NCBI RefSeq assembly: GCF_003860125.1
Contig: NZ_RQYL01000001.1
Span: 1-64,000, forward strand
DNA from: Fretibacterium sp. OH1220_COT-178
Lineage (GTDB): Bacteria > Synergistota > Synergistia > Synergistales > Aminobacteriaceae
Reading direction: 5' to 3'
DNA: 64,000 nt
Part shown: positions 59-46,503 of the stretch, piece by piece
Position numbering within the stretch: the stretch's first letter is position 1
Layout of the letters: every line of letters starts with the position of its first letter
The notes under the pieces: generated by a model
The model's database searches: none
The model's input: the letters and a program-made list of their open reading frames with translations, nothing else
Told to the model about the DNA's origin: nothing
Translations under genes and position numbers: made by a program

Positions 59-1585
<1,527 letters not shown>

Positions 1586-37243: not shown

Positions 37244-38350
37244 TCATGCGGAATAGACTTTGCTCCCCGCCCCCAGGACGTCCGTAATGCGCACGCCGAA
37301 ATTTTCGTCGATCACGACGACCTCGCCCTTGGCGATCGGCTTTCCGTTGACCAGGATGTCCACCGGCTCCCCCGCCATCTTGTCCAGTTCGATCACGGAT
37401 CCCGTAGTCAGGGCCAAGATCTCGGAGATGTTCTTGCGGGTCTTTCCCAACTCCACCGTCACGCGGACGGGGATATCGGCGATCATGTCGATACGGCTGT
37501 TGCCACCTCCGGAAGTCCCGTGTCCCAAGGGAAGGAATTCGGCGGGATGCACGTCCACCGCGGGCGCGGGGCGCTGTGCCGCCCCCGACACGGCGGAAGC
37601 GGGAGCACTCGGCCGTTCCGCCTGACGCATCGGCGGAGCGGAGGCCGGTGGCTCGTCCGGAGGAGGGACCGAGCTTTTGGGCGTCTGTTCCCCCATGATC
37701 TGGCGCATGAGTGCCGCCACAGCCAAAGCGGAATCGAGCGGCATGGAACTCCATACCTTGAACGGATTCAGCCCATCCACCCGAACATCGGCAGGGCTCA
37801 CCCAGAGTTTGGCCTCCGCATCAAGCTGGGGAAAGGGCCGCCACTCCCCCGCAGCCAAAGCCGACGCGGAATTCTCCGGCATCAGACGGCGGCCGCCCAA
37901 CAGTCCGCTGAGGCTCGTGAACGAGGACCCCACGACCTGGCTCAACCCCTCCTGAGCCGCATTGAGGTAGAGTTCGCTGGGCTCCGAGGGCAGTTCCTGT
38001 CCCTCTCCTCCCATCATCAGATCCGCAAGAGTCAGGGCCCCATGCTGCTCCACAACGAGGGTCAGCGGGATATCGTCAAACCCTCCGCAGGTCGTTCGAA
38101 AAACGAAGGGGGATTCCGGCAGCTTCGCGACAAACTCCTCCTGGGACAAAACCTCCGCGTCCTCCAGGAGCGTATCGACATCCTTTCCCGACAACATGCC
38201 GAAAACGCTGTTCTCGGCATTCGAAAAAATGGACGCCACCTCGCCCAGAAGCTGAGAATCCTCCATGGAGAGCCCGGCTCCCGAGTCCTCTCCCAACACG
38301 CCCCCCGAGAGCAGCGCGTTGATCTCGTCCTGGCTAAGAAGATCGTCCAT
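37244..38350 (-). CDS. fliY: Flagellar motor switch protein FliY (FliN-like C-terminus)
   Basis: Protein of 368 residues. It begins with the peptide LSQDEINALLSG, which resembles the CheY-binding N-terminus of FliM/FliY. The middle has two CheC-like segments (LLGEVASIFSNAENSVF and QEGLSQVVGSSFTSLSGLL), and the C-terminus is a SpoA/FliN domain (VTVELGKTRKNISEILALT, VDILVNGKPIAKGEVVVID). In both CheC-like segments the ExxN phosphatase motif reads ExxS (Glu39-Ser42 and Glu136-Ser139, counted from an ATG two codons upstream), so the CheY-phosphate phosphatase may be lost. It overlaps fliM by 17 bases. Confidence 0.9.
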   Translation of the reverse strand: MDDLLSQDEINALLSGGVLGEDSGAGLSMEDSQLLGEVASIFSNAENSVFGMLSGKDVDTLLEDAEVLSQEEFVAKLPESPFVFRTTCGGFDDIPLTLVVEQHGALTLADLMMGGEGQELPSEPSELYLNAAQEGLSQVVGSSFTSLSGLLGGRRLMPENSASALAAGEWRPFPQLDAEAKLWVSPADVRVDGLNPFKVWSSMPLDSALAVAALMRQIMGEQTPKSSVPPPDEPPASAPPMRQAERPSAPASAVSGAAQRPAPAVDVHPAEFLPLGHGTSGGGNSRIDMIADIPVRVTVELGKTRKNISEILALTTGSVIELDKMAGEPVDILVNGKPIAKGEVVVIDENFGVRITDVLGAGSKVYSA

Positions 38351-39347
38351 CCTCATCTCCTCCTTCCGCCTCTTCCTGCCCGGCCGCGCTCATCACCTGG
38401 GTCAATTCCGCGGCAACCCGGCCGTCCAGGGTTCCCGGCCTGGCCTTGAAACGCACGTGATTCCCCACGCGGACGGCAATTTCGCTTTCTCTGGTCTCGT
38501 CCAGCTTGATGACGTCGCCGGGCTCCAGCGCATAAACGTCGGCCAGGCTCAGTACCGTGTGCCCGAGCTCCAGGGTGAGCGGCACCTTTACATTCTTCAA
38601 CGAATTGACGATGTGGTCCCTCTCGTCCTCGTCCCGCTTGCGACTCGTCGAGGCAAACCACTGCTGGGAGGAGAGCTTGTCGACGATCGGCTCCATGAGG
38701 AAATAGGGGAAACAAAGGCTCAGCATCCCCTCCATATCCCCGACCTTCAGTTTCATGATGACCAGCAGGACCATGTCCCGAGGCGGGCAGATCTGAACGA
38801 AGAACGGGTTGCTCTCCATGCTTTCGAAACGGAAGCGGACGTCCACCACCGTGCTCCAGCTGTCCTCGAGGAGCTCCAGCATGCGCATCAGGACGCGTTC
38901 CGTCACCGTTTTTTCGATGTCCGTGAGTTCCCTGACCTTGCCCGAAAAATCGCCCTTGCCCCCGAGCATCCGGTCGATGATCGAGAATACGAGATTGGGA
39001 TTGATCTCCAGAAGAATGTTCCCGTTGAAGGGATACATCTCGATCGTTCCGATGACCGTCGGCTGCACGAGCGAATTGACGAATTCCTCGTACGCCAGCT
39101 GATCCACCGAGGCGACCTCCACCGAGACCATGGAACGAATGAGAGTCGACATGACCGTGGTCATCTGTCGGGCAAAGGACTCGTGGATCATTTGGATGGC
39201 CCGAAGCTGGTCTTTGCTGAATTTATCCGGGCGCTTAAAGTCGTAGACCTTGATCTTGTACTCCCCGGAGTTCTGGGAGATCGCATCGAGGTCCACGCTC
39301 CCGCTGGTCAGCGCGCTTAAAAGCGAGTCAATTTCGCTCTGGGACAA
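38334..39347 (-). CDS. fliM: Flagellar motor switch protein FliM
   Basis: Protein of 337 residues, the rotor subunit that binds CheY-P. The N-terminal CheY-binding peptide is LSQSEIDSLLSAL; the middle CheC-like domain has RAIQMIHESFARQM, FNGNILLEINPNLVFSIIDRMLGG and LTDIEKTVTERVLMRML; the C-terminal SpoA domain has VPLTLELGHTVLSLADVYALEPGDVIKLD. Start uncertain: TTG at 39347 has no clear ribosome site, and an in-frame stop lies 21 bases upstream. It is coupled to fliY by overlap. Confidence 0.96.
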   Translation of the reverse strand: MSQSEIDSLLSALTSGSVDLDAISQNSGEYKIKVYDFKRPDKFSKDQLRAIQMIHESFARQMTTVMSTLIRSMVSVEVASVDQLAYEEFVNSLVQPTVIGTIEMYPFNGNILLEINPNLVFSIIDRMLGGKGDFSGKVRELTDIEKTVTERVLMRMLELLEDSWSTVVDVRFRFESMESNPFFVQICPPRDMVLLVIMKLKVGDMEGMLSLCFPYFLMEPIVDKLSSQQWFASTSRKRDEDERDHIVNSLKNVKVPLTLELGHTVLSLADVYALEPGDVIKLDETRESEIAVRVGNHVRFKARPGTLDGRVAAELTQVMSAAGQEEAEGGDEDGRSS

Positions 39348-39414
39348 GACGTCGGGAGCCAGAGGTCATCACCTGCCTTTACGTTTAGGAAACACATCGG
39401 CCGAGAAGTTCGGC

Positions 39415-39864
39415 CTACTGAAGCACAAAGGATTCGAACAGGACCTGAACGATGGGGGCTTCCCCCTTGATCTCAGGAAGGATGGCGTTCAAGGACCGTT
39501 TGATATCCCCGGCGAACTGCAACGCGCCCTCGGCACTGGTCATGTCGTCGTAAACCTTGTCCTTGACCATAAGCAGGACCTCGTTTTTGATCCGCAGAAG
39601 CCACCCCGGGGCCTGTACGATCTCGGCCGCCTTGTCGTTCAGAAGTTCCAGCGACATCGTAAAGCTGATGACATGCTTTCCCGCCCCCGCCAGGTTGCTC
39701 GTGAACTCCCCGACGGATACGATGGGCCCCGGCGCCTTGACCTGGCGCCCCTCCTCCACGGCTCCGCCCTTCGACGCCATGGTACGCCCCACCAGCAGAC
39801 CACCGCCGAAACCGGCCCCGAACATCACCAGCCCCACCACGACGAAGATAACGATACGTTTCAT
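39415..39864 (-). CDS. fliL: Flagellar basal-body-associated protein FliL
   Basis: Protein of 149 residues with one N-terminal helix (IVIFVVVGLVMFGAGFGGGLLVG) and a periplasmic stomatin-like domain (VGEFTSNLAGAGKHVISFTMSLEL, LLMVKDKVYDDMTSAEGALQFAG). FliL surrounds the stator and supports its torque. It follows motB by 19 bases in this cluster and precedes fliM, the common order. Confidence 0.92.
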   Translation of the reverse strand: MKRIVIFVVVGLVMFGAGFGGGLLVGRTMASKGGAVEEGRQVKAPGPIVSVGEFTSNLAGAGKHVISFTMSLELLNDKAAEIVQAPGWLLRIKNEVLLMVKDKVYDDMTSAEGALQFAGDIKRSLNAILPEIKGEAPIVQVLFESFVLQ

Positions 39865-39883
39865 ACGGCCCCGTTCAACCCCT

Positions 39884-40612
39884 TTAACGTTTGGGATATT
39901 GCGAAAGAAACACGAGATCGACCCGGCGATTCAAGGCCCTGTGCTCAGGCGTGTCGTTAGGGACAACCGGTTGGTTCGGCCCGAAACCAACGGCCTGGAG
40001 CTTCAGGGGATCGATCCTTCCCTCCGTCTCCAGGTAGGCGGCCACCACCGCCGCCCTCATGGAGGAAAGCCCCCAGTTGTTGCGATAGATCCCCCCCAGC
40101 AGCGGAACCGCATCGGTATGCCCCTCCACGGCAACGGCCGGGACCTTGTCCCGAACCAGCGCTGCGATCTTGTAGAGAGCACGCTGCCCCTCCAGCCTCA
40201 ACTCCGCGCTTCCCGAGGCGAAGAGAAACTGATCCGATATCGATACCGCAACTCCCCGCTGATTGATCGAGACCCGGATGGACTTGTCCAGCCCCTCCGC
40301 GCGCAGATAACTGTTGACCGTGTGGGCGACATGACGCGTATCCATCTCGAAGCGTGGCGCGGAGCCGGCATCCCGCCCCTCCTCCCCGCTCCGGTTGGGC
40401 TGGGTCGATTCCTCCGTCGTGACGCCCCCCCTCAAAACCCCCAAGGACCCCCTCAAGGAGATCAGGGCCTTCTGGAACTTCTGAGAGTCGATGGAGGACA
40501 TGGCGAAAAGCAACACGAAAAAACAGAGGACAAGGGTCACCATGTCCCCATAGGTCGCCATGTAAAGCGGAGCTCCCGGAGGAGGGGGGGGAGCCTTCTT
40601 CTTTCGGGCCAA
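39884..40612 (-). CDS. motB: Flagellar motor stator protein MotB
   Basis: Protein of 242 residues. One membrane helix near residues 17-40 holds Asp23 (YGDMVTLVLCFFVLLFAM), the essential ion-carrying Asp of MotB. The OmpA-like peptidoglycan-binding domain is at the C-terminus (VEGHTDAVPL, NNWGLSSMRAAVVAAYL, NRRVDLVF). The start is TTG at 40612, eight bases after GGAGG. It is paired with motA three bases upstream. Whether H+ or Na+ is used cannot be decided from the sequence read by eye. Confidence 0.94.
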   Translation of the reverse strand: MARKKKAPPPPPGAPLYMATYGDMVTLVLCFFVLLFAMSSIDSQKFQKALISLRGSLGVLRGGVTTEESTQPNRSGEEGRDAGSAPRFEMDTRHVAHTVNSYLRAEGLDKSIRVSINQRGVAVSISDQFLFASGSAELRLEGQRALYKIAALVRDKVPAVAVEGHTDAVPLLGGIYRNNWGLSSMRAAVVAAYLETEGRIDPLKLQAVGFGPNQPVVPNDTPEHRALNRRVDLVFLSQYPKR

Positions 40613-40615
40613 AGA

Positions 40616-41389
40616 TTATTCCTCCTTCTTCTCCAGGCTGCCCCTCAGCTTGGGAGGCAGAAAGACCTTGAGCTTTTCCTCGACAATGCGCGGATTCTCC
40701 CCCGCCTGTATGGCCAGGATGCCCTCGACCATCAGCTCCATCGCGACGATCTGCTGAGAGGATCGAGCGGCGAGCTTCTTGGCGATGGGAACGGCAAACA
40801 TGTTCGCCACCATCGACCCGTACATAGTCGTGATCAGGGCCACGGCCATACCGGGGCCCAGGGCGCTGACATCCTGAAGGTTGCCCAGCATGGCGATCAG
40901 GCCGATCAGGGTTCCGATCATTCCATAGGCCGGCGCCAGCTCCGCCATGGAATCGAATATGGACTTGTTGGAGAGATGCCGGTCCTCGCGAATCCCGATC
41001 TCGGTGTCCAGAATGGCCTTCACCAGTTCGGGATCCGTACCGTCGACGACCAGCTGTATGGACTTTTTCATAAATTCGTTGTCGAGTTCGCCGACATCCG
41101 CCTCCAGGGCCAGAAGCCCCTCGCGGCGCGCCTTCTCGGCAAAGCTGACGATCGTCTGCACCATTCCCAGAAGGTTGGGCTCCTTGGAGATGAAGGCGCT
41201 CTTGATCACACCGCCGACCGCTTTGAGCTTGTCCCCGGGGTAGGAGATGATGACGGCTCCAATCGTCCCTCCGATCGTGATCAGAAGGGAGGGGAAATCG
41301 ACATAGGCCCCCAAGTTTCCGCCCGAGGCCATTCCCCCGATGACAAGAATCCATGCGATAAGAAAACCTACGACAGTGGTCAGATCCAA
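40616..41389 (-). CDS. motA: Flagellar motor stator protein MotA
   Basis: Protein of 257 residues with four membrane helices. Family segments: LITIGGTIGAVIISYP, the cytoplasmic loop (EKARREGLLALEADVGEL) that contacts the rotor, and the ion-channel helix APAYGMIGTLIGLIAMLGNL, which resembles PomA/MotP types. The start is TTG at 41389. It forms the stator with MotB, which follows it by only three bases. FlbD lies just upstream. Confidence 0.95.
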   Translation of the reverse strand: MDLTTVVGFLIAWILVIGGMASGGNLGAYVDFPSLLITIGGTIGAVIISYPGDKLKAVGGVIKSAFISKEPNLLGMVQTIVSFAEKARREGLLALEADVGELDNEFMKKSIQLVVDGTDPELVKAILDTEIGIREDRHLSNKSIFDSMAELAPAYGMIGTLIGLIAMLGNLQDVSALGPGMAVALITTMYGSMVANMFAVPIAKKLAARSSQQIVAMELMVEGILAIQAGENPRIVEEKLKVFLPPKLRGSLEKKEE

Positions 41390-41442
41390 AATTCATCAAC
41401 CTCTCGCCAAGTCTCTATCCTCGAGATGCGATCTCGCCAACC

Positions 41443-41670
41443 CTATTCGGTGTCCCTCGACTCGGCCGAGGAGTCCGCCACAATGCAGGAATACCCTGCC
41501 AACCGTCTGAAGGCCACGATCCTGTCGCGAATCTCCTGGACTCCCTCCCGAACGACATAGCGATGACCATTTAAGAGGCGTATCACGGTGTCCGGCGTGA
41601 CTTCAACGGTCTCAATCATATCAGAATTCAACAAAAAAAGCTCGCCATTAAGGCGATGCAACTCGATCAT
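41443..41670 (-). CDS. flbD: FlbD family protein
   Basis: A 75-residue protein of the small FlbD family common in flagellar clusters next to motA. Seen: IELHRLNGELFLLNSDMIETVEVTPDTVIRLLNGHRYVVRE. Family role not settled; it is often the first or second gene of the operon. ATG at 41670 follows GAGGAGAAGACG. It begins the flagellar cluster of the window. The promoter should lie in the 75 bases between it and the helicase terminator; I see no clear one. Confidence 0.9.
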   Translation of the reverse strand: MIELHRLNGELFLLNSDMIETVEVTPDTVIRLLNGHRYVVREGVQEIRDRIVAFRRLAGYSCIVADSSAESRDTE

Positions 41671-41744: not shown

Positions 41745-41769
41745 CAAAAAAACGGAGCCCCTCTCCGTA
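41745..41769 (-). terminator. Terminator separating the helicase from the flagellar operon
   Basis: On the minus strand ACGGAG, a short loop, CTCCGT, then TTTTTTT. It lies 145 bases after the helicase stop and just upstream of flbD, so it isolates the flagellar operon. Confidence 0.8.
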
Positions 41770-41912: not shown

Positions 41913-43490
41913 TCACCGGCTGGTCTCGATCTCGCCAATTTTCTCCTCGAAGCCGTAGATGGTGGGGTCGATCTCGTCTACGGTCCGGTTCAGGTCCTCC
42001 AGCCCGCGGAAACGGCGTCCCCTGGGCAGGCGGTTGGCAAACCGCTTGACCTTCAGCAGCGCCTGAAGGTAGTTGCGCTCGAAGGGCAGCACCATCTGTG
42101 CGGCCATCAGAGCGCTCGGCGTGGCTTCCTCGAAGAACAGCAGGGCCATCTCCAGATTTTCGTCGATGTCCATCTCGTCGTACCAGATTTCGGCCAGGAT
42201 CGACCGGTAGCGGTTTCGGTCCGCTCCATGCACCAGCTTGCGCACCACCCGATCAATCTTGCGCATCCCCGCCCGCAGCATCTCCAGAACGATCGCGGCA
42301 TCCGCCCTGGGCAGCGAGTACTCCGCGATATACTCCGCCTCCACCTCCGGCAGGGCCTGCTTGCGCAACAGCCGGCCATAGGAGGGACGAAGCGTCACGA
42401 CCGCCGGCTCGGATGGGGCCTCGACCAAAGCTCTGAACACCTCTCCCGTGTCGAAGCCCCTCCGCTCGAAGGGCGAGGCCTTGAGCCAGGTCACGAATCC
42501 GGGGTCGAACAGCCCCTTGCGGCCCGCTCGCCCCGCCATCTGGAGGAACTCGTTCTTCGAGATGGGCTCGTCGTGGTGATACTGCACCAGTTGAGCGAAG
42601 ACGACATACTGTGCAGGCAGGTTCACCCCCAGGGCCAGGGCGTTCGTGCCGCAGACGACATCCAGAATGCGCTCGCGAAAGGCCGACTCCACCAGCAATT
42701 TTTCCTTGGGAAACATGCCCCCGTGGTACACCCCCACGCCGTTCAGCAGCGGCGGGGCGATCTTCGGCACCTCCAGAATCCCCGCCAGCTCCTTCAGACG
42801 CTCTCGGGCGTCGCGGGCAAGGGGCGTACGCGTTCTCGAGATCGCAAAGGCCAGATCGGACGCCCCCTTTTGGGAGAACAGAAAGATCAAGGCGTCGTGA
42901 ACGCCCCCCACCGTCATGGGATTATCCGGGGTGAAGATCAGGCGGGTCGTCCTCTTCCTGCTCTCATGGATGACAAAATCACGGGAACAGATCTCGGAGA
43001 GATAGCGTCCTACGGACCGAACCCCGCCGAGGGTGGCGGACATCACCAGAACGGGAGTCCTGGGGTGCGTGGCGCGTATCCCGTCGATGTAGGTACGGGC
43101 ACGGTCGGGGTCGTTGAAGATATAATGGAACTCGTCCACGATCAGCCTCTGGTCGGGCTGATCCGCGTACTTCATGGTGTAGATCTCCTGGGTGCAGCAG
43201 ATGATTCGAGCTCCCTCGTTGCGCTTGAAGTCGCCCGTCTCGATGCCGACATCCAGTCCCATCCGCCTCAGGTCCATATAGCGCTCGTTGCTCAGAGCCT
43301 TGATGGGAGCAGTGAAAACGATACGTCGGGCGTCCGGCAGGCAGCCCCGCCCCTCCCGGTCCAGCAGACCCGCCCAAAGATAGGCAACCAGAGTCTTTCC
43401 CGACCCTGTCGGGGCCGAGAGCACGGCACTTTGTCCCTCGATTCGGGAGAATGCGTCCAGTTGCCAATCGTAAAATTCCAGTTTACCCAA
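41913..43490 (-). CDS. Ski2-like superfamily II helicase
   Basis: Protein of 525 residues with a full helicase core: Walker A SAPTGSGKTLVAY (residues 25-37), TAPIKALSNERY, DEFH box (119-122, LIVDEFHYIFNDPDRA), VMSATLG, and motif VI QMAGRAGRKG. The DEFH box, the APIKALSNERY motif Ia and the C-terminal extension match Ski2/Mtr4-type RNA helicases rather than RecQ or RecG. In eukaryotes and archaea these work in RNA decay or DNA repair; in bacteria their role is little known. The start is TTG at 43490 with a GAGGGGAG site about 12 bases away. The gene has its own terminator and lies next to rnpB. Confidence 0.85.
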   Translation of the reverse strand: MGKLEFYDWQLDAFSRIEGQSAVLSAPTGSGKTLVAYLWAGLLDREGRGCLPDARRIVFTAPIKALSNERYMDLRRMGLDVGIETGDFKRNEGARIICCTQEIYTMKYADQPDQRLIVDEFHYIFNDPDRARTYIDGIRATHPRTPVLVMSATLGGVRSVGRYLSEICSRDFVIHESRKRTTRLIFTPDNPMTVGGVHDALIFLFSQKGASDLAFAISRTRTPLARDARERLKELAGILEVPKIAPPLLNGVGVYHGGMFPKEKLLVESAFRERILDVVCGTNALALGVNLPAQYVVFAQLVQYHHDEPISKNEFLQMAGRAGRKGLFDPGFVTWLKASPFERRGFDTGEVFRALVEAPSEPAVVTLRPSYGRLLRKQALPEVEAEYIAEYSLPRADAAIVLEMLRAGMRKIDRVVRKLVHGADRNRYRSILAEIWYDEMDIDENLEMALLFFEEATPSALMAAQMVLPFERNYLQALLKVKRFANRLPRGRRFRGLEDLNRTVDEIDPTIYGFEEKIGEIETSR

Positions 43491-43792
43491 GAAACTGTAT
43501 GCTCCCCTCGCGTAATTTTGGCACCCGAGGCACGCGCAATCGCAAGCGCTTTCGGGGGAATACGACGGAAAGACAGGCCCTCCGCGCTCTCATCCGCGAA
43601 GGGCCCGATACCGATTCTCAGTCATGACTGGGCTTCATTCACGCAGGCGGCCGACCTTTCCCGAGGACGCAGATCTTCGATCCCATGTCGTTTGGCCGCA
43701 TCGAAGCGCCTAACCGCGACTGAACCACGCGGACGGACATCGTCCTCCTGTCGGACACCAAGGATTCGGAGCTGAAATGGCACCATCCGTTT
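43491..43792 (-). other. Region between rnpB and the helicase
   Basis: 302 bases. It holds a hairpin (43576-43605, stem of about 11 bp with one G-T pair followed by TGTCTTT) that could end a transcript from upstream, and a 54-codon open frame at 43622-43786 beginning just after the rnpB end. The frame has no ribosome binding site, so I do not call it a gene. Confidence 0.5.
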
Positions 43793-44138
43793 CAAAAAGC
43801 GAGCAGCTCATAAGCCGGGTTCTGTATACGGTAACCATTTATCTGGGAGGCTCCTCGCGGAGCCCCTCGAGCGATCGTACCCGGGGGTCGGCGGGCCGCC
43901 TCATCCCCCCCTATTCGATCTTGCTCCGGATGGGGTTTGCCAGGCATGCGGCTTACACCGCATCCGGCAGGCTCTTACCCTGCCTTTTCACCATTACCCC
44001 CTTCAAGAGGGCTGTCTGTTTTCTGTGGCACTTTCCTTCGGCTCGCGCCGACCGGGCGTTACCCGGCATCCTGCCCTGCGGAGCCCGGACTTTCCTCCGC
44101 GGCAATTCCGGCCGCGGCGGCTACCCGAGCTGCTCGCC
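43793..44138 (-). ncRNA. rnpB: RNase P RNA
   Basis: Catalytic RNA of RNase P, which matures tRNA 5' ends. Helix P1 is perfect: the 5' GCGAGCAGCTC pairs with 3' GAGCTGCTCGC. Conserved core sequences are visible on the minus strand: GAGGAAAGTCCGGGCTCC near the 5' end, GCCACAGAAA, and ACAGAACCCGGCTTATGAG at the 3' end. The 3' end runs into TTTTT. Length of about 346 nt fits bacterial A-type RNA. Confidence 0.95.
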
Positions 44139-44170: not shown

Positions 44171-44536
44171 TCATTCGTGGCGGGATACGAAAGAATGGCG
44201 CCCCTTTCTCTGGTGGCGGATCTCCCAGTGAATCATCAGCGCCATCAAAGCCCGCAGTACGACAATGGCCCCCACGACCAGGATCTCCTCCCAACTCTGG
44301 ACGACGACCGTCCGTAAGATCTCGCCCCCCAGCTTGAACTCGAGCCCCGAGGCCAGTCCCTCGGCCAGTCTCAGACGGTCGAAATGCAGACGCTCGCTCG
44401 TCCTCACCGTCCAGTAATCCCAGAACGCCCGAACTCCGGAGACAAGAATGACTACGAACCCCATAGCCTCCAGAAGATGAATGCCCAAGTAAAGTGCCTG
44501 AAGGCTCATGCTCGACAAGAATTCCATAGTTCCCAT
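44171..44536 (-). CDS. DUF1622-type membrane protein
   Basis: Protein of 121 residues with three hydrophobic segments (LGIHLLEAMGFVVILVSGVRA, GGEILRTVVVQSWEEILVVG, AIVVLRALMALMIHW). The phrase RLRLAEGLASGLEFKLGGEILRTV and the closing HWEIR match the DUF1622 family. Function unknown. ATG at 44536 follows GGAGGG closely; ATG at 44527 is also possible. It is transcribed from an extended -10 at 44648-44656 towards rnpB. Confidence 0.8.
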   Translation of the reverse strand: MGTMEFLSSMSLQALYLGIHLLEAMGFVVILVSGVRAFWDYWTVRTSERLHFDRLRLAEGLASGLEFKLGGEILRTVVVQSWEEILVVGAIVVLRALMALMIHWEIRHQRKGRHSFVSRHE

Positions 44537-44647
44537 ACTCCCTCCGAACGTTTGATCGCATGACCGCAGCCCAGGGGCTCGGCCCCATCCTCCCGCCTCG
44601 AAAGACCAGAACCTGCCGTGGGAAGGCAGTCGGGAGCTCCGCCCCCG

Positions 44648-44656
44648 ATTATAGCA
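44648..44656 (-). promoter_or_regulatory. Extended -10 promoter of the DUF1622 gene
   Basis: The minus strand reads TGCTATAAT about 110 bases upstream of the ATG at 44536. No -35. Confidence 0.45.
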
Positions 44657-44731
44657 TTGGACCACTTCCCACCCCATTCTCCCCGATTCCCCTTTCTCCG
44701 TAAAAAGCCGTCAAAAAAGAACGATCGGAGC

Positions 44732-44760: not shown

Positions 44761-44973
44761 TTATGAATGTGCCGGAAGAGACCTTTCATCTTCGGGGTAC
44801 CGTCCACGCCCGGACGCCCCCCTGAAAACTTTTCACGACATATCGTTTTCCGCCGGAGCACGAGGTACCACCTTGAGAATCCTTCCTTGCGCCCTTGCGG
44901 ACGATGAACTTGGCACAAACATCAACCGTTCTTGTCCCTACAGAACGAGAACAAAAGAAGGAGAGGCAATGCC

Positions 44974-46503
44974 ATGCAATTTCTCACTTTGATACTGGCT
45001 TTGGCAGCCGGGGCCGGTATCGGCTACCTGGTGCTGAGGACGTTGGACAACACGCGCATCACGGGCGTCAGACACCAAACGATGGCTATGCTGCAGGAGG
45101 CCAACGAAGCGGCCGAACGGGCCAAGAAGGAGCGGCTGACGGAGGCCAAGGAGGAGATCTTCCGGCTTCGTCAGGACGCGGAGCGGGACATCAAGGAGCG
45201 CCGCAACGAATTGCAGCGGGCCGAGCGGAAGATCGAGCAGAAGGAGGAGAACCTGGACCGCAAGCTGGACAAGGTCTCCCATAAGGAGGACGAACTCCGA
45301 AACAAGCAGGAAGCCCTCGAACAGCGGGGTACGGAACTCGAGGCTCTCATCCAGCAACAGAACGCGAAACTCGAGGAGATCGCCGAACTGACCCGCGATC
45401 AGGCGCAGGAAATCCTGCTCCGCAAGACGGAGGAGGAGTCCCAGTATCTCATCGGCCTTCGCTTGAAGGAACTGGAGGAGAAGGCTCAGAGGGAGGCCGA
45501 CCGCAAGGCTCGGGACATCGTCGTCTCGGCCATGCAGCGTTGTGCGGTGGAACATGCCGGCGAGGCGACCGTGAGCGTCGTCTCCCTGCCGACCGACGAC
45601 ATGAAGGGGCGCATCATCGGACGGGAGGGGCGCAACATCCGCGCCTTCGAGACCCTGACGGGGGTGGACCTGATTATCGACGATACTCCCGAGGCCGTGA
45701 CGCTCAGCAGCTTCGACCCCATTCGGAGGGAGATCGCACGCCGATCGCTGGAGCGTCTTATCTCGGACGGACGGATCCACCCCGCGCGCATCGAGGAGCT
45801 GATCGATAAGGCCACGAGGGACGTCGAGGAGGACATCGTCTCCGCGGGAGAGTCCGCGATCCTGGAGATGGGAATCAAGAACATGCACGCGGAGCTGATT
45901 CGGACTCTGGGGCAGCTCAAGTTCCGCTTCAGCTACGGGCAGAACGCCCTCTCGCACAGTCTCGAGGTGGCACACATTTCCGGCGCCATTGCCTCCGAAC
46001 TGGGCCTCGACGAGGAGATGGCGCGCCGGGCGGGGCTGCTGCACGATTTGGGAAAGGCCGTCGACCACCAGGTAGAGGGACCCCACGCCTCCATCGGAGC
46101 GGACCTCGCCAGGCGTTTTGGGGAAAAACCCGAGGTAGTCAGCGCCATCGCCTCCCATCACGACACCATGGAGGTCAACTCCGTCTACGACGTCATCGTC
46201 TCCGTGGCGGACGCCATCAGCGCGTCCCGTCCCGGCGCACGACGCGAGAGCCTCGACGCCTACATCAAGAGACTGGAGAAGCTAGAGGAATTGGCCCAGG
46301 CGTTCAACGGCGTCTCCAAGGCCTACGCAATCCAGGCGGGGCGGGAGGTTCGCGTCGTCCTCTCCTCCAACAACACGGACGACGGCACGGTGCACAAGCT
46401 GGCTTACGATATCGCCCGAAAGATCGAGGCCGAGATGAAGTACCCCGGCCAGATCAAGGTGAACGTCTCGCGCGAGATGCGCGCCACGGAGTTCGCGAAG
46501 TGA
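44974..46503 (+). CDS. rny: Ribonuclease Y
   Basis: Endoribonuclease of 509 residues that starts mRNA decay. An N-terminal membrane anchor (FLTLILALAAGAGIGYLVL) is followed by a long coiled coil rich in Glu, Arg and Lys (residues about 25-170), then a KH domain (GRIIGREGRNIRAFETLTG) and an HD domain with the metal His-Asp pair (LLHDLGKAVDH). ATG at 44974 has GAAGGAG upstream; a longer frame with MSLQNE is unlikely. It overlaps ymdB in part: its stop shares bases with a GTG, but the real ymdB start lies 42 bases later. Confidence 0.96.
   Translation: MQFLTLILALAAGAGIGYLVLRTLDNTRITGVRHQTMAMLQEANEAAERAKKERLTEAKEEIFRLRQDAERDIKERRNELQRAERKIEQKEENLDRKLDKVSHKEDELRNKQEALEQRGTELEALIQQQNAKLEEIAELTRDQAQEILLRKTEEESQYLIGLRLKELEEKAQREADRKARDIVVSAMQRCAVEHAGEATVSVVSLPTDDMKGRIIGREGRNIRAFETLTGVDLIIDDTPEAVTLSSFDPIRREIARRSLERLISDGRIHPARIEELIDKATRDVEEDIVSAGESAILEMGIKNMHAELIRTLGQLKFRFSYGQNALSHSLEVAHISGAIASELGLDEEMARRAGLLHDLGKAVDHQVEGPHASIGADLARRFGEKPEVVSAIASHHDTMEVNSVYDVIVSVADAISASRPGARRESLDAYIKRLEKLEELAQAFNGVSKAYAIQAGREVRVVLSSNNTDDGTVHKLAYDIARKIEAEMKYPGQIKVNVSREMRATEFAK

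Follow-up and report, generated by a model that had tools for sequence, protein, structure and literature searches.

Gene content and motifs of the locus

Within the window, the whole 64,000-nt stretch of Fretibacterium sp. OH1220_COT-178 DNA analyzed here, the minus strand carries a compact Ski2-type SF2 helicase gene at 41913..43490 (525 aa, TTG start). Directly upstream lies rnpB, encoding RNase P RNA class A (43796..44136, minus strand; RF00010, 302 bits), with a 305-nt gap between the two (43491..43795, minus strand). Beyond rnpB we find a 168-aa ORF with a hydrophobic segment (44171-44677, minus strand), which we take to be DUF1622-like, followed by an ORF at 44932-46503 that is presumably RNase Y. 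Downstream of the helicase, minus-strand genes at 38334-41670 presumably encode flagellar motor FlbD, MotA, MotB, FliL, and FliM, and a bacterial 16S rRNA gene stands at the start of the window (65-1584, minus strand; RF00177, 1507 bits).

Two terminator-like sites, both consensus matches only, flank the helicase: a hairpin with a T run at 41752..41768 (minus strand), about 145 nt past the helicase stop codon, and a site at 43804-43817 that overlaps the end of rnpB. The original prediction gave the helicase its own terminator, for which the hairpin is a plausible candidate only, with seven terminator-like sites in the region against 3.8 (sd 2.4) in shuffled sequences.

The helicase ORF is not due to chance, since a 30-row alignment (A1) contains orthologs of 46-81% identity; it is real and encodes a compact Ski2-family variant with two RecA domains and a short helical C-terminal domain. 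Along the minus strand, the core holds motif I (Walker A; APTGSGKT, residues 26-33, 43392..43415), in which P27, T28, G29, G31, K32, and T33 are invariant in A1; motif Ia (TAPIKALSNERY, residues 60-71, 43278..43313), which resembles the PIKALSNQKY of FRH and Mtr4; motif II (DEFH, residues 119-122, 43125..43136); motif V (GTNALALGVNLP, residues 281-292, 42615..42650); and motif VI (QMAGRAGRKG, residues 317-326, 42513..42542), as well as TGD and SAT motifs.

Three Pfam domains score above cut-off in the helicase—DEAD (49.9 bits), Helicase_C (35.3 bits), and ResIII—and none does so in its C-terminal part. The Pfam scan also found no DSHCT (PF08148, searched at E ≤ 1), no DUF3516 (PF12029, a 464-position C-terminal domain), and neither of the Hel308 domains Helicase_dom4_arc and HTH_61. 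The C-terminal part is an all-helical domain (residues 345-525, 41916..42458, minus strand) with a segment, NYLQALLKVKRFANRLP (473-489), whose L475, L478, L479, K482, R483, and P489 are invariant in A1; once viral and plasmid rows are added, L478 alone stays so. Long Arg/Lys-rich tails end some orthologs, namely the family f6 rows (L101-L103) and the uncut ORF of L095, whose tail was trimmed away in A1.

Placement among Ski2-like helicases

The DEFH and Ski2-type motifs Ia and VI of the original prediction were all located, and the solved sequences closest to the single helicase sequence are FRH and Mtr4, with Ski2 next. A 19-row profile gave the same leaders (FRH 188, Mtr4 183-186, Ski2 164-175, Brr2 91-154, and Hel308 113-126 bits). 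The protein had also been said to match no bacterial RecQ, RecG, or Lhr, and a profile search for a well-known bacterial family bore this out: no NCBIfam model, including RecQ, RecG, Lhr-type (PRK13767/PRK09751), and TIGR03817, reached its curated cut-off. Hel308-type models ranked highest at 80.0-99.7 bits, far under cut-offs of 887-1216 (for instance, 97.6 bits for NF040935, cut-off 1200), with the RecQ, RecG, Lhr-type, and TIGR03817 scores lying below these.

For the phylogeny, which had been proposed with Ski2, Hel308, Mtr4, and bacterial groups, we computed a tree of 63 sequences without the eukaryotic Mtr4, Ski2, and Brr2 (IQ-TREE, LG+G4+F, 332 trimmed columns of the two RecA domains; SH-aLRT/UFBoot supports taken from the unrooted tree string, re-rooting shifting the printed labels). 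All 37 compact sequences split from all others (100/100), setting their branch apart from the bacterial DSHCT and DUF3516 groups and from Hel308. Within the compact branch, the 30 Synergistales rows group together (97.2/100), and they form a larger group with the plasmid sequence and the viral members L157 and L158 (98.6/100). Nearest to the compact branch is the DUF3516 group, with a joining split of only 78.6/82; reference labels beyond the Pfam-scanned proteins follow branch position alone.

An AlphaFold2 model of the helicase (from the 30-row alignment) reached a mean pLDDT of 89.7 and a pTM of 0.85. Foldseek ranked FRH, Mtr4, and Ski2 first, with DNA polymerase theta and Hel308 next, and VIA gave Z 24.4 to both FRH (4xgt; rmsd 3.9, 482 aligned, model residues 2-518) and Hjm (2zj8; rmsd 4.2, 467 aligned). 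By its core motifs and these structure matches, the protein has a Ski2-type core and belongs to the broad Ski2-like SF2 group. Against a viral fold library, giant-virus, lipothrixvirus, and other helicases ranked above RNA-virus polyproteins, no TM-score by query length exceeding 0.63 among the best 50 matches listed. As the RecA part spans about 345 residues, more than 100 of the aligned residues fall in the C-terminal part, which takes the place of the Mtr4 and Hel308 C-terminal domains in the whole-model superposition. Modeled alone (pLDDT 89.8), residues 345-525 had no PDB match by Foldseek at E ≤ 0.001 and a best VIA Z of 4.3; the C-terminal bundle is therefore a putative counterpart, by a reading of the superposition, of the winged-helix and ratchet domains that follow RecA2 in Ski2-like helicases.

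Distribution in Synergistota

At E ≤ 1e-20, 174 of 389 genomes matched, and subtracting the 23 outside the phylum leaves an ortholog in 151 of 185 Synergistota genomes, all 151 in one order; this breadth rules out a stray archaeal gene. Relaxing the threshold to E ≤ 1e-3 raises the count to 157 of 185, the six genomes with only E 7.6e-5 to 7.0e-4 presumably carrying other helicases. In a sample of 386 relatives of genome G205 that partly overlaps the 389, two matches reached E ≤ 1e-80, both in Synergistales. Most genomes have one match and several have two, partly contig-end fragments; one MAG (RGIG3433) holds two helicase loci (L041 and L056), one of them cut at a contig end, as a second copy or a binning error.

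Among good genomes (≥ 90% complete, ≤ 5% contaminated), 96 of the 115 from the phylum carry the helicase, a count derived as 115 good matching genomes minus 19 good outside ones. Its job is dispensable, since it is missing from 19 of the 115. Among the genomes listed, all six of family f3 and both of family f9 are without it, so the gene was either lost more than once or is unevenly spread.

RecQ (E ≤ 1e-60) occurs in 80 of the 185 phylum genomes, 76 of the 151 with the helicase and 4 of the 34 without (counts uncorrected for relatedness and completeness). The two thus tend to occur together, and RecQ was rejected as a replacement for the helicase.

Relatives outside the phylum

Ski2-type helicases had been described as mainly archaeal and eukaryotic, a view our survey contradicts: they are not rare in bacteria, with 23 of 204 sampled outside genomes matching at E ≤ 1e-20. 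The best outside score is 198 bits, and none of the outside matches listed extends past profile position 422 of 528. Of these 23 proteins, 21 measure 650-1016 aa as read (some cut by locus ends), and the other two, at 247 and 258 aa, are short open frames. A Pfam scan of 12 of them found DSHCT in five, DUF3516 in five (four strong; L143 weak at 33 bits), and neither in two (L139, L147). In one scan of ten comparison proteins, five had DSHCT; PF12029 scored 381-610 bits in L127, L129, L131, L132, and L170, the last from a phage record, and L169, from an archaeal plasmid, had Hel308 domains.

Outside the phylum, full-length compact relatives were found only on a Thermoanaerobacterium plasmid and six distinct IMG/VR-labeled viral contigs. 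The plasmid protein, publicly annotated as "DEAD/DEAH box helicase", is 43.9% identical over 98% of the query; it accounts for two of 45 matching plasmid records, which have equal lengths and are probably one plasmid. A full-length profile built with the plasmid and five viral sequences scored these at 672-779 bits, the viral member outside it (L165) at 583 bits, and 29 other proteins at no more than 214 bits. Among INPHARED phages, 13 records matched, none covering 80% of the query.

Bhandari and Gupta reportedly carried out the original work on conserved signature indels. In our alignment, family f6 has a 6-8-residue insertion at about 460-471 in all three rows (L101-L103) and in none of the remaining 27; two of the three also have a one-residue gap near 428 that occurs nowhere else in the alignment. 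The accessible portion of PMC5738826 places signature indels of a "putative DEAD/DEAH box helicase" at 398-457 and 437-496 in Jonquetella, Pyramidobacter, and Dethiosulfovibrio. Because these positions match those of the f6 indels, the helicase was probably used before as a taxonomic marker, without an assigned function. Our literature searches, with many subscription papers outside their reach, found nothing on DUF3516 helicases, only unrelated papers among the matches listed for Ski2 in Synergistales, and for rnpB-helicase co-transcription only an organelle non-coding RNA review, judged by title.

Linkage to rnpB and other host genes

We collected 56 related loci (window excluded), 53 of them with at least 450 bp upstream; L042, L044, and L047 were dropped for short upstream sequence. 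In 37 of the 53, rnpB is found on the same strand no more than 600 nt upstream, with a median gap of 35 nt and a gap of at most 61 nt in 32 of the 37. These gaps are approximate, running from the nhmmer match end to a helicase start extrapolated from tblastn, and the loci are partly dependent (L041 and L056 come from one isolate; L043 and L052 have identical numbers). Twelve of 14 rnpB-helicase gaps inspected are without a run of five T, with L012 and L004 having one. Co-transcription appears less likely in the window than in these relatives, because of the 305-nt gap and the terminator-like site overlapping the rnpB end.

In the tree, loci without the link are nested within groups of linked ones at weakly supported positions. 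In loci of other families (L087-L106, L124-L126; mostly with some 5 kb of flank per side) nhmmer did not find rnpB, using a model built from close relatives' rnpB that a divergent rnpB may escape. RNase Y lies beyond rnpB in the window and in three of the 33 linked loci that offer 1500 bp or more. The original prediction had taken an RNA role as possible from the adjacency to rnpB, and had proposed looking for co-occurrence with rnpB or RNase Y. The linkage to rnpB proves real among close relatives, with RNase Y joining it in few loci; the link cannot define the function, because it was found neither in the other families' loci nor in 16 of the 53 closer ones.

This linkage bears on an explanation that we hold to be possible yet doubtful, in which the protein would act in RNA decay or processing as a bacterial Mtr4/Ski2 counterpart, passing the 3' ends of structured RNA to an exoribonuclease, or remodeling RNase P substrates. 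Along with rnpB and RNase Y, the closest solved relatives (exosome helicases), the Mtr4/FRH-like PIKALSN of motif Ia, and the long basic tails of L101-L103 and L095 speak for it. Its weight is reduced by the restriction of the rnpB link to close relatives, the location of the viral relatives in DNA modules, the absent DSHCT domain, and the CshA-like DEAD-box protein that the organism's own genome already has (398 bits, cut-off 646).

Neighboring protein genes vary between families, and a comparison over 55 loci (some genomes counted twice; greedy ORF calling in GC-rich DNA, with some antisense ORFs) revealed no recurrent protein-gene operon and no cluster in more than 9 of the 55. Such variation would suit a helicase with no tie to RNase P, to which rnpB merely lends a strong promoter and which works on something other than R-loops or recombination intermediates, as in general transcript or nucleoid clearing. 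We judge this distinctly unlikely, and it leaves the repeated viral replication context unexplained.

The organism's own genome encodes RecG (above cut-off) and, below cut-off, the CshA-like protein together with Mfd-like (read from a 5'-truncated stretch) and RecQ-like proteins. It also holds a second Hel308/HamB-like helicase of 1091 aa (L180:526-3798, contig C9; PADLOC PDC-M23B, 1445.8 bits), as well as three possible defense loci: L181 and L183 (contigs C22 and C34), with a RecQ-like 1234-aa protein (C3a193/DpdF models) and a DpdE/ZorD-like SNF2 protein, and L182 (contig C31), with Cas3. The compact helicase itself is matched in part by HamB models of PADLOC (60.5 bits at best), which raises a phage-defense role of the HamB (Hachiman) kind. 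This is highly improbable: the best match is confined to residues 179-324, the RecA2 core, instead of running full length, and the helicase is present through most of one order with no recurrent partner gene.

Viral and plasmid gene context

In four viral contigs, the helicase relative lies near genes for an exonuclease, SbcD, and SbcC (gp46/47 being the T4 counterparts of SbcC/SbcD), identified in two by profile search and in two by eye. PHROG matches in L159 run through exonuclease, SbcD, SbcC, and a polynucleotide-kinase-like gene to the helicase, with ribonucleotide reductase further on; in L163, from the same contig, a clamp loader, a thymidylate synthase-like gene, and an ORF with no match precede the exonuclease-SbcD-SbcC series. 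L165 has, by PHROG, thymidylate synthase, exonuclease, SbcD, SbcC, and three small ORFs (the one scanned against PHROG had no match) before the helicase. A clamp loader (223 bits, PHROG) begins the series in L164 as in L163, and L160/L164 and L161 have exonuclease, SbcD, and SbcC in the same order, as read by eye from identical ORF beginnings. Upstream of the helicase in L157 is directly a CHC2-type primase, with a DNA methylase and a SNF2/ResIII-type gene downstream.

In L159, the ORF immediately upstream of the helicase matches phrog_415 (polynucleotide kinase-like), as does one located two genes upstream of it in L157. No such DNA module appears in L158 or on the Thermoanaerobacterium plasmid, judging by ORF beginnings and annotation; the plasmid carries RNA-splicing ligase RtcB at L162:7810-9000, some 3 kb away from its helicase gene. 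Identity is 34-36% for the viral members with SbcCD nearby, the more distant ones. In all six compact members tested, the best PHROG was phrog_6819, by name a "Holliday junction branch migration helicase". Set beside the RNA role suggested earlier, the viral context points at least equally to DNA.

Proposed function

We tentatively favor, as quite possibly correct, a helicase that remodels branched DNA and R-loops as a 3'-5' motor. The viral modules and the PHROG label favor a DNA substrate, and the nearness in sequence together with the rnpB clade would favor RNA; a substrate containing both kinds of strand, the R-loop, would suit either reading. We place branched DNA and R-loop remodeling first and RNA decay a close second because R-loops fit both readings and because T4 UvsW unwinds R-loops and regresses forks (PMC3016281, accessible portion). 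The same portion of that paper has UvsW and gp46/47 needed for recombination-dependent replication in a plasmid model.

The protein would load on a 3' single strand, and ATP hydrolysis would drive it 3'-5', with the C-terminal bundle as a putative ratchet. Like phage T4 UvsW, it would then act on intermediates of recombination and replication, among them R-loops, by unwinding or branch migration. The available text of PMC5818665 describes 3'-extension loading and 3'-5' unwinding by Ski2-like enzymes, and ratchet-domain mutations that abolish unwinding by Mtr4. More speculatively, the family may have passed in either direction between mobile elements and a Synergistales ancestor, with vertical descent thereafter, and in one clade the gene may have come under the rnpB promoter. 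A more specific history strikes us as unlikely: the Synergistales ancestor would have taken up the compact Ski2 branch from viral or plasmid replication modules, and in one clade the helicase would be the second gene of the rnpB transcript, an RNase P RNA and mRNA bicistron whose joint of about 35 nt would have to be cut to free both.

Several findings count against remodeling of branched DNA. By profile, the nearest solved relatives are RNA helicases (Mtr4/FRH, 183-188 bits); rnpB is the neighbor, with RNase Y in three loci and the window; SbcCD accompanies the more distant viral members, and neither L158 nor the plasmid member shows such a module; and a search with the C-terminal domain by itself returns no ratchet domain, the helicase is dispensable, and RtcB, an RNA ligase, is about 3 kb off on the plasmid.

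The shortest complete Ski2-type proteins met in this analysis gain a wide bacterial home for substrate tests. Through the viral context, Ski2-type motors would be connected with phage recombination, and loci with the rnpB linkage allow a test of whether an essential ribozyme and a helicase share a transcript.

Comparison with known systems

The compact helicase shares with Mtr4, FRH, and Ski2 the RecA core, the PIKALSN of motif Ia, and a QMAGRAGR-type motif, and with Mtr4 and FRH a whole-model Z of 20.4-24.4 over 469-483 residues. It differs from them in length, most of their full chains running to about 1000 aa against 525 aa here, and in the absence of DSHCT; at this length, it would be too short for an Mtr4 arch. 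The bacterial DSHCT proteins (L135, L137, L140, L142, L146), which we take to be HelY/Mtr4-like, have the same Ski2-type core but measure 662-879 aa as read (locus ends truncate two of them) and form a separate branch. DUF3516 helicases (L127, L129, L131, L132, L170) likewise share the core and are the nearest tree group, but possess their own 464-position C-terminal domain, which the compact helicase is missing. Archaeal Hel308/Hjm resembles it in whole-model fold (Z 24.4 to 2zj8), but has Helicase_dom4_arc and HTH_61, absent here, and its model NF040935 has a cut-off that the compact protein misses. With T4 UvsW, which according to the accessible portion of PMC3016281 is a phage helicase working with gp46/47, the likeness would be one of functional analogy only.
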